Origin: Bacteroidota bacterium
GTDB taxonomy: Bacteria > Bacteroidota > Bacteroidia > Palsa-948
NCBI GenBank assembly: GCA_016213435.1
Contig: JACRAL010000157.1
Location: 1 to 33,408 of the forward strand
DNA length: 33,408 nt
Direction: 5' to 3'
Shown: one piece after another, positions 478 to 33,408 of the stretch
Layout of the letters: the number at the start of each line of letters is the position of its first letter
Numbering within the stretch: position 1 is the stretch's first letter
The notes under the pieces: generated by a model
The model's database searches: none
Seen by the model: the letters and a program-made list of their open reading frames with translations, nothing else
What the model was told of the DNA's origin: nothing
Position numbers and translations under genes: made by a program

Positions 478-648
478 CCTTTGGTTGCATTTTTCTTTTG
501 TTTGATGTTTATATAATATGCTGATTTTTAATTAAATATCAATATCTAATTAAATTTAAGCGCACACTTAATTTGTTCTATAATTTACATTATATTAAAT
601 TCTAAACTTTAAGGTGAAAAGAAAAGGGCTTTAATTACCCTTTAAAAT

Positions 649-656
649 TATATTTG
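649..656 (+). promoter_or_regulatory. candidate -7 promoter box of the structured small-peptide RNA
   Basis: TATATTTG is an exact match to the Bacteroidota -7 consensus TAnnTTTG. A start site about seven bases further on would place the hairpin at 659-691 at or very near the 5' end of the RNA. No TTTG is visible 19-21 bases upstream, so the -33 element is weak or absent. Confidence 0.4.
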
Positions 657-747
657 AAATGCAAAAACCCCACTCTTAATGGGGTTTGCATAAACAATGC
701 GAACAGTAAACCGTCCGAGGGGTCTTTAGGACACAATTCCAATCTAT

Positions 748-837
748 ATGGAAAAGGTCAAAAACCTGTTAGAGATAATCGTATTATCTCTAACCATTGC
801 TCTGACTATTCTCGAAATAGTCGTTATCTTTAAATAA
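748..837 (+). CDS. 29-residue single-span hydrophobic micropeptide
   Basis: The frame ATG 748 to TAA 835-837 encodes a charged N-terminus (MEKVKN), a hydrophobic core of about 22 residues containing LEIIVLSL and then LEIVVIF, and a final lysine. This layout predicts one membrane-spanning helix. The two LEI-I/V-V segments and their DNA are similar, which suggests an internal duplication of about 22 bases. No good Shine-Dalgarno sequence is present; AGGA lies about 17 bases upstream. The frame is covered almost completely by perfect RNA hairpins and is followed ten bases later by a rho-independent terminator. Size, hydrophobicity and structured mRNA resemble type I toxin peptides such as the Fst, Ldr and Ibs families, but I see no sequence match to any of them. 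It could instead be a regulatory membrane micropeptide, or an RNA gene in which the frame is fortuitous. Confidence 0.5.
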   Translation: MEKVKNLLEIIVLSLTIALTILEIVVIFK

Positions 838-846
838 GATAACATT

Positions 847-880
847 AAGGGGCGGTGCAAAACATCGCCCTTTTCTTTTT
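847..880 (+). terminator. rho-independent terminator of the micropeptide RNA
   Basis: GGGCGGTG (850-857), loop CAAAA (858-862) and CATCGCCC (863-870) form an 8-bp stem with one G-U pair, extended by AAG against CTT-like bases. It is followed by TTTTCTTTTTTCTTTT. The T-rich tail is on the plus strand only, so it ends plus-strand transcription and does not serve the convergent DUF2279 gene well. Confidence 0.75.
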
Positions 881-8970: not shown

Positions 8971-10476
8971 ATGAAGAATATTACCCGTTCCATTATTTTC
9001 ATTTTATTTATCTACAGGAGTACCTCCTTTTCTCAAACGGAAGGCAATTCCATCTTTAACAGTTCGCAAATTCACTCCATCAAAATCTATTTTTCACAGT
9101 CCCACTGGTACGATTCATTGGTTGCCTATAAACCGCTTGACAAAAAGATGCTCGGCAAAGTGATGATCAACGGGCAGACGGTTGATTCCGTGGGCATCCA
9201 GTTCAAAGGGAATTCTTCATACAACAATCCCAGCAAAAAGAAATCATGGAAGATCGACTTTAACGAGTTTGACTCTACTAAAAGATATAACGGACTTAAG
9301 GCAATCAATCTGAACAACGGCTTCAAAGACCCTACCATGATGCGGGAAAAAATCATGAACGATTTCATGAACCGGAACGGTCTTCCTGCTCCGCGCTGCA
9401 CGTATGGGAATGTATATGTAAACGATACGCTCTGGGGATTTTATACTGTAGTGGAACAAGTGAATAATACTTTTCTCAAACGCTGGTTCCCCGAAAATGA
9501 CGGCAATCTTTTTAAAGGAGATCCCCAAGGCTCGTTGCAATGGGTTGGCTCAACTCCTTCATCATACTACACAAAGTACGAACTGAAAACAAATACCACT
9601 GTTAATGACTGGACAGACCTTGTTCACCTTCTGGATAAAATAAATAACACTCCGACAGGAAATTTTTACGACTCCTTGGAAACAGTGCTGCATACCAGTC
9701 TTGCTATCCGGGCATGGGCAGCAAACATTCTTTTTGTAAATCTTGATTCTTACGAGGGCTCAGGGCACAACTATTACATTTATCATGACCTTCTCTATAA
9801 TAAGTTCGGATGGATAACATGGGATGTGAACGAGGCGTTCGGGAACTTCAATCAGGGCATGAACATTTCACAGATCGAGAACCTCAGCATCTTTTATATT
9901 CCAACTCCTTCCACCAATCGCCCGCTCACAAACAAAATGCTTGCAAACACCACTTATAAAAATTCTTATATATGGGAAGTTTGCAACTTTGTTGCCAATG
10001 ATTTTGACACCACGGTTCTTAACCTGATGATAGATAGTTTGGCAAACGTAATCCGTCCCTATATATATGCTGATTTCAGAAAATTCTACACCAATCAACA
10101 GTTTGAAACCAACATCAATGCGGATATTACCGGCTCCTTTAATATTCCGGGATTAAAATCATTTCTGGTAAACAGGCGGTCAAGCGTACTTTCTGAACTT
10201 ACTGCAAACGGATGTTACATGAATGTAAACGAATCTTCCGTTTTCGGTTTACAGTTTACAGTTAATCCAAATCCGAACAAGGGTGAGTTTACAGTTTACG
10301 GGTTACGCTTCCCTGTTCAAATACAGGTTTATAATTCTTTAGGCCAAATTATCCATCAACAAACCGTAAACAGTAAACAGGAGACTGTAAACCTCAACCA
10401 AACAAGCGGAATATATTTCTACCGAATTCTTTCAAAAGACATTCCTGTCTCATCAGGAAAACTTTTTATTGAATAA
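8971..10476 (+). CDS. CotH-kinase-family protein with T9SS type A sorting domain
   Basis: A secreted protein of 501 residues. Residues 1-21 form a signal peptide ending near SFSQ. Residues 35-400 match the CotH family, related to the spore-coat kinase CotH, whose members phosphorylate secreted proteins: GIQFKGNSSYNNPSKKKSWK, GFYTVVEQVN, DGNLFKGD, SGHNYYIYHD and FGWITWDVNEAFG are visible. The last 75 residues are a T9SS type A sorting domain (NPNPNKGEFTV, QVYNSLGQII, GIYFYRI), so it is exported through the outer membrane and released or anchored. Kinase activity is not shown. The DNA coding for the sorting domain (10246-10394) contains several near-repeats of GTTTACAG in both orientations. It begins its own plus-strand unit, divergent from the RluB gene. 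Confidence 0.9.
   Translation: MKNITRSIIFILFIYRSTSFSQTEGNSIFNSSQIHSIKIYFSQSHWYDSLVAYKPLDKKMLGKVMINGQTVDSVGIQFKGNSSYNNPSKKKSWKIDFNEFDSTKRYNGLKAINLNNGFKDPTMMREKIMNDFMNRNGLPAPRCTYGNVYVNDTLWGFYTVVEQVNNTFLKRWFPENDGNLFKGDPQGSLQWVGSTPSSYYTKYELKTNTTVNDWTDLVHLLDKINNTPTGNFYDSLETVLHTSLAIRAWAANILFVNLDSYEGSGHNYYIYHDLLYNKFGWITWDVNEAFGNFNQGMNISQIENLSIFYIPTPSTNRPLTNKMLANTTYKNSYIWEVCNFVANDFDTTVLNLMIDSLANVIRPYIYADFRKFYTNQQFETNINADITGSFNIPGLKSFLVNRRSSVLSELTANGCYMNVNESSVFGLQFTVNPNPNKGEFTVYGLRFPVQIQVYNSLGQIIHQQTVNSKQETVNLNQTSGIYFYRILSKDIPVSSGKLFIE
10246..10394. repeat. GTTTACAG-type direct and inverted repeats in the T9SS domain coding region
   Basis: GGTTTACAGTTTACAGTT (10246 onward) and GTTTACAGTTTACGGGTT (10288 onward) are near direct repeats. 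AACCGTAAACAGTAAAC (10362-10378) and CTGTAAACC (10385 onward) are their near reverse complements, so a long hairpin is possible. Short pieces of the same sequence appear at 704-714 and 17809-17817. Confidence 0.5.
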
Positions 10477-15406: not shown

Positions 15407-15512
15407 TGTTTAATTCGTAGTCACCATCCATCCCATGCTTCTCAGCGCAATCAAAGCAGCAAAGGCGGGTTTATGCTGCAAAGGGGCGATTGCTGATTGC
15501 TGCTTCCTGCAC

Positions 15513-15701
15513 TTCGCTTAACGTTGGGGTCGTTTCGTTGAGCGTTGGGGTCGCTTCGTTTAACGTTGGGGTCGCTTCGTTGAGCATTGGGGTCGCTTCG
15601 TTTAACGTTGGGGTCGCTTCGTTTAACGTTGGGGTCGCTTCGTTTAACGTTGGGGGCGCTTCGTTTAACGTTGGGGTCGCTTCGTTGAGCGTTGTGGTCG
15701 T
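15513..15701 (+). repeat. nine tandem 21-bp repeats (minisatellite)
   Basis: The unit is TTCGTTTAACGTTGGGGTCGC with a variant TTCGTTGAGCGTTGGGGTCGC. Nine units in exact 21-base register run from 15513 to 15701; most differ at zero to four positions. Each unit contains the palindrome AACGTT or its variant AGCGTT. The two forms are interspersed (positions 2, 4 and 9 carry the GAGC form). Confidence 0.92.
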
Positions 15702-15873
15702 TATTTCAAGGATTTTAGTGAAGAAGAAAGTTTTTTCTCGCAGAGACGCTGGGGGAATAGATTGCTTTTTCTCTCAGAAACACGCCAAGATGCTAAGAAG
15801 ATGCTCATAACTCAGGGTATTATAAGGAAACAGGGGGTGTTTGAGGAGGTGATGGAAGTGTTTTCAAGGGTAA

Positions 15874-33272: not shown

Positions 33273-33408
33273 TCACCTTCTTTGTTCTCACCATAGCATT
33301 CTGCTTGTCGTACAACTGACAGCAGCGCCCTTGACCTTGTCGCTCAGTACATTTCCGTGAAGGATTTGCACCACAAGGCGGTTTGATTAATTCGCCTGAA
33401 CATCTTAA
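33268..33408. other. unrelated-looking sequence at the window edge
   Basis: The PKD-type frame stops at 33273-33275 and the bases beyond differ in style. A minus-strand frame from the edge, rich in cysteine and charged residues (PPCGANPSRKC, GRCCQLYDKQNAM), is open to a stop at about 33265. No family is recognised. It may be another gene's end, a repeat or an assembly join. Confidence 0.35.

Follow-up and report, generated by a model that had tools for sequence, protein, structure and literature searches.

The DNA analysed here, referred to as the window, is a whole contig of 33,408 bases belonging to a 3.7 Mb draft genome. Within it, the region at 659-880 sits between two convergent genes, one encoding an 89-aa protein on the plus strand (208-477) and the other a DUF2279 lipoprotein on the minus strand (974-1981). 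The DUF2279 gene is transcribed toward the region, and an exact TAnnTTTG box of its own lies at 2033-2026. In the 89-aa protein, the stretch KRGRPP resembles an AT hook and the tail is rich in lysine; the protein has no match in Pfam or NCBIfam, and its gene is present in two copies in most congeners and has relatives across the class. Between the two genes lie a short hydrophobic reading frame, a series of hairpins and terminator-like sites on both strands:

617-643, minus strand: second minus-strand intrinsic terminator, AAAGGG TAATTAA AGCCCTTT TCTTTT, terminator-like at 643-623
649-656, plus strand: TAnnTTTG -7-type box TATATTTG of the putative toxin mRNA, an exact match but a weak one; transcription would start near 661-663
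659-691, both strands: hairpin F, a stem of about 12 bp interrupted by a 2-nt bulge; on the minus strand it resembles a terminator (687-665) and ends in GGGGTTTTTGCATTTC with a five-T run, and on the plus strand it is the 5′ hairpin of the mRNA
659-846, minus strand: putative antisense RNA (candidate antitoxin) or structured DUF2279 3′ UTR, from the minus-strand fold
692-802, minus strand: predicted four-way junction, with closing stem 802-795/699-692 and hairpins C (794-768), D (766-721) and E (717-700)
748-837, plus strand: frame for a 29-aa peptide, MEKVKNLLEIIVLSLTIALTILEIVVIFK, with an ATG start partly within a 5-bp stem; assessed by shuffle tests
768-794, plus strand: perfect 12-bp hairpin within the frame (hairpin C of the minus-strand junction), inverted-repeat arms 768-779/783-794
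804-822, plus strand: perfect 7-bp hairpin within the frame, arms 804-810/816-822
823-843, plus strand: perfect 8-bp hairpin spanning the stop codon, arms 823-830/836-843
847-880, plus strand: intrinsic terminator (hairpin 847-873), 11 pairs followed by TCTTTTTTCT, beginning ten bases past the stop codon

The initial annotation of this region had described the 29-residue frame, an exact -7-type box, a 12-bp 5′ hairpin, three perfect hairpins of 11, 7 and 8 bp and a rho-independent terminator ten bases after the stop. All are present, with corrections of detail: the 5′ hairpin contains a bulge, and the stem given as 11 bp measures 12 bp, while those of 7 and 8 bp are as described.

The first noteworthy plus-strand gene downstream of the frame begins at 8971, so that 748-837 is not the leader peptide of a downstream gene; a leader peptide or attenuator was rejected on the same ground, there being no plus-strand gene following. 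The protein at 8971-10476 has a tail that by eye resembles a Por-type sorting domain; this tail and the TAnnTTTG boxes suggest that the genome belongs to Bacteroidota. A frame at 15490-15810 on the plus strand is built from a short repeated unit (NVGVASF/LSVGVAS), and a group II intron fragment (Rfam RF01999) at 33315-33408 on the minus strand is cut by the contig end and is probably the repeat at which the assembly broke. A mobile element was also considered for the locus, as a 13-bp inverted repeat (617-629/867-879) resembles terminal repeats. It was rejected: both copies consist of terminator stems plus tails, the unit occurs only once in the genome, and inspection by eye showed no target duplication.

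A non-random hydrophobic frame in a strongly folded plus-strand RNA

The peptide encoded at 748-837 has a GRAVY of 1.56, a best 19-residue mean of 2.83, and three charged residues of each sign. It is shorter than 60 aa, hydrophobic and has one putative transmembrane helix, as is common to membrane-class type I toxins (PMC8309996). No ATG frame with an equally hydrophobic stretch appeared in 3,000 dinucleotide shuffles of the sequence. With every base pair preserved, the peptide's own hydropathy was never matched in 40,000 shuffles, and a value of at least 2.5 was reached in only three. Neither base composition nor the overlying hairpins account for the frame.

Its codons tell a different story. 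The synonymous codon score of 748-837 is -1.353, against -1.114 (s.d. 0.08) for gene-like choice, i.e. 3 s.d. below gene-like and the same as uniform choice. This fits a non-coding RNA or a chance frame, or else codons picked for pairing, and it keeps the non-coding reading alive. None of 600 synonymous variants of the frame folds as well as the natural sequence on either strand, meaning that the structure exceeds what the peptide requires.

The plus-strand RNA of 659-880 has a predicted folding energy of -72.8 kcal/mol (z -7.50), and none of 200 shuffles did as well. The candidate toxin mRNA is therefore strongly folded, with its own terminator at 847-880. The U and G of the start codon are paired in the predicted fold, and two of the pairs in the terminator hairpin are G-U, workable on the plus strand only. 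The promoter end of this putative transcript is less distinct. The window shows no enrichment of TAnnTTTG boxes, with 38 present where 45.7 would be expected, and no TTTG or TTG lies at the usual -33 distance from the box at 649-656, leaving the plus-strand -33 element poor; the box is accordingly weak evidence by itself.

The minus strand has the stronger fold

The initial annotation had noted that no antitoxin RNA promoter could be seen by eye on the minus strand, and had otherwise overlooked this strand. Its view of the promoter was borne out by analysis: no minus-strand consensus promoter was convincing, the best candidates being one base off the box, a grade of match that occurs about once per 100 bases per strand. 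What had been missed is that the minus strand of 659-880 folds better than the plus strand (-82.6 kcal/mol, z -9.26, vs. -72.8 kcal/mol, z -7.50) and carries terminator-like hairpins at 687-665 and 643-623. In the core at 659-805, z is -7.43 on the minus strand and -4.84 on the plus strand. The strand energy difference was exceeded by none of 300 shuffles for 659-805 and by one of 300 for 692-803, an asymmetry z of about 3, whereas over the whole of 659-880 it is unremarkable (exceeded by 24 of 300).

Terminator-like hairpins are enriched (7 found vs. 1.9 expected). With a minus-strand terminator at 687-665, the 5′ hairpin of the mRNA doubles as the terminator of a putative antisense RNA. Each strand thus has termination signals past the proposed start of the other, which amounts to an overlapping sense-antisense layout. 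Alternatively, the minus-strand RNA may be the terminal part of the DUF2279 mRNA.

No relatives were found in the sequences searched

The initial annotation had placed the peptide in no listed family, and we agree: it has no match in Pfam, NCBIfam or PHROGs, bearing in mind that profile searches are weak at 29 residues. The proposed search for homologous frames or RNAs in related genomes yielded no homologue of either. At the DNA level, the locus is single copy in its own genome and has no relative in 40 related genomes, 395 genomes of the class or 395 of the phylum; the class-level matches with E values of 0.001-0.1 are scraps of 17-60 bases drawn from all parts of the query. Peptide searches gave no relative in sets of 60 and 198 genomes, in phages or in plasmids, and the weak matches in genomes fall mostly within long frames. 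A homologous frame was likewise missing from six congeners, some 200-400 class genomes and 395 phylum genomes. A degenerate peptide pattern run against 84,980 genomes and viral contigs returned five genome matches and one viral match, none of them a short hydrophobic frame, and exact RNA patterns of the locus found no relative in the viral contigs.

The minus-strand RNA fared no differently. A covariance model of the minus-strand core (R1) found no relative in the 395 class and 395 phylum genomes, and no Rfam family reached its gathering score in this region. The best scores were 27.6 for rimP (cut-off 47) and 26.4 for the ohsC antitoxin (cut-off 50); these and a weak score for MicX were rejected as chance. 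Congener loci that are syntenic for the DUF2279 and 89-aa genes lack the element. With no homologue found, neither the frame nor its base pairs can be said to be conserved, and identification of the locus rests on its anatomy.

The genomic background was sampled in up to 1.57 Mb, from the host genome plus one congener. This 1.57 Mb holds 71 intergenic frames that are short and hydrophobic; of these, 748-837 has the strongest fold, and three others attain a hydropathy of at least 2.8. Judged by folding only, 160-nt windows of the locus rank about 10th and 15th among 661 intergenic windows. Hairpin-rich intergenic stretches are common in the host genome, and others also hold long inverted repeats. 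One such stretch (L078 on contig C13, 12770-12985) has four tandem intergenic hairpins with similar loops, three of which are perfect stems of about 12-15 bp, and has no sequence relation to 659-880. Another (L079 on contig C14, 500-1040) has very strong, long intergenic inverted repeats; one stem measures about 20 bp, GGGAGAGGGAATGTTCGGGC, and lies inside a second long stem. No similar unit was found in the 1.22 Mb of the host genome that was searched, and the combination was not met again in 1.57 Mb. By a rough estimate, chance would bring a strong fold and a hydrophobic frame together about 0.1 times in a genome, which makes the finding notable yet not beyond doubt.

An orphan type I toxin-antitoxin-like unit is the best single reading

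The frame, its departure from randomness, the folds of both strands and the terminator-like sites on both strands are computed properties of the locus. Taken together, they are best read as an orphan, lineage-specific type I toxin-antitoxin-like unit, a reading that we favour over any other single one while holding it tentatively, at a little short of an even chance. The initial annotation had come to a type I toxin-like locus by way of the peptide. In support of that view are a non-random peptide and a length, hydropathy and charge like those of ZorO; the codon choice and the failure to find a homologue detract from it. A type I pair is further supported by the terminators, two on the minus strand and one on the plus strand, which flank the unit at opposite ends.

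We infer transcription of either strand, translation, antisense control and toxicity, which might operate as follows. The plus strand would yield an RNA of about 220 nt (about 661-880) that encodes the 29-aa single-span membrane peptide. Translation of this mRNA should be low, as it is folded along its whole length and its start codon is partly held in a stem. The minus strand would supply a complementary RNA, with its end at the terminator hairpins at 691-659 or at 643-617; this RNA would pair with the mRNA, perhaps from the unpaired leader stretch at 703-712 onward, and would block translation or trigger decay of the mRNA. If the minus-strand RNA were lost, the peptide would insert in the inner membrane and dissipate the membrane potential. 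In a more specific and quite improbable version of this scheme, set in a palindrome-rich stretch of about 200 bp, the membrane toxin on one strand would face a multi-branched antitoxin RNA derived from the 3′ end of the neighbouring lipoprotein mRNA on the other. Were this true, normal expression of the lipoprotein gene would silence the toxin, and the pair would represent a new type I family in Bacteroidota.

The strand asymmetry speaks against the type I reading, favouring the minus strand as the natural RNA with no need for the frame. The functional product would then be a structured non-coding RNA of the minus strand, or the 3′ UTR of DUF2279, comprising the four-way junction and the tandem terminators at 665 and 617, and the frame would be a by-product. 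In addition to the better minus-strand fold and its core asymmetry, such an RNA would account for the two minus-strand terminators, for the DUF2279 gene being transcribed toward the region from its own box and for codons that are not gene-like. These codons, the failure to find a relative and the want of a good minus-strand promoter make a fortuitous frame, carried on a structured RNA or 3′ UTR, a serious rival. We nevertheless consider it unlikely, at about one chance in four: a frame of this kind almost never arose in the pair-preserving shuffles, the G-U pairs of the plus-strand terminator work on that strand only, and neither Rfam nor the covariance model produced a relative of the RNA.

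We regard two further explanations as improbable, to the same degree. The locus may be an ordinary spacer where the 89-aa and DUF2279 genes end, with overlapping terminators and palindromic DNA devoid of further function. The convergent genes, the enrichment of terminators, the long hairpins in other intergenic regions and the absence of the element beside the same genes in related genomes would all be expected of a spacer, but terminators leave the hairpins at 692-843 and the peptide unexplained, and the combination was unseen elsewhere in 1.57 Mb. Alternatively, the frame may encode a non-toxic small membrane peptide, for example a regulatory subunit of a membrane protein, translated from a tightly folded mRNA that has no antisense RNA. 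A single span with flanking charges, together with a stand-alone promoter-like box and terminator, is compatible with this. Regulatory membrane subunits, though, are usually conserved together with their partner, and here there is no adjacent partner gene and no relative was found; the minus-strand terminators would also be left unexplained.

Comparison with known type I systems

Most known type I systems come from Proteobacteria and Firmicutes. In the literature, of which our coverage was partial, we found no characterised type I toxin in Bacteroides, Bacteroidetes or Bacteroidota. If the locus is indeed an orphan type I toxin-antitoxin unit, it would show that such loci arise and vanish fast and evade homology searches.

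Type I toxins share small size, hydrophobicity and one putative transmembrane helix (PMC8309996), and the resemblance of the candidate peptide to those of the membrane class is one of analogy. It is not membership, given that no family model matches, no antitoxin promoter was found and toxicity is only putative. TisB is also a 29-aa membrane peptide with charged residues (PMC9860968), and its mRNA needs processing (PMC11264685). Unlike the TisB/IstR pair, the locus has no Pfam or NCBIfam match, and an adjacent divergent antitoxin gene was not seen.

ZorO of E. coli is a 29-aa peptide with a GRAVY of 1.4 and six charged residues, three of each sign (PMC9860968), and the toxin mRNA of the ZorO/OrzO system is folded (PMC9860968, PMC11264685). 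The candidate peptide agrees in length, single span, hydropathy (1.4 vs. 1.56 here) and number of charges, and its putative mRNA is folded as well. It differs in phylum and promoter type and in lacking a family match, its toxicity is putative, and the candidate antitoxin would be a cis antisense RNA of the same DNA rather than the product of an adjacent gene. Most type I antitoxins do overlap the toxin gene and are read from the opposite strand of the same DNA (PMC8309996). The locus has no sequence relation to the families of these overlapping pairs, and no good antisense promoter was found in it; the likeness lies in the terminators that it carries on both strands.
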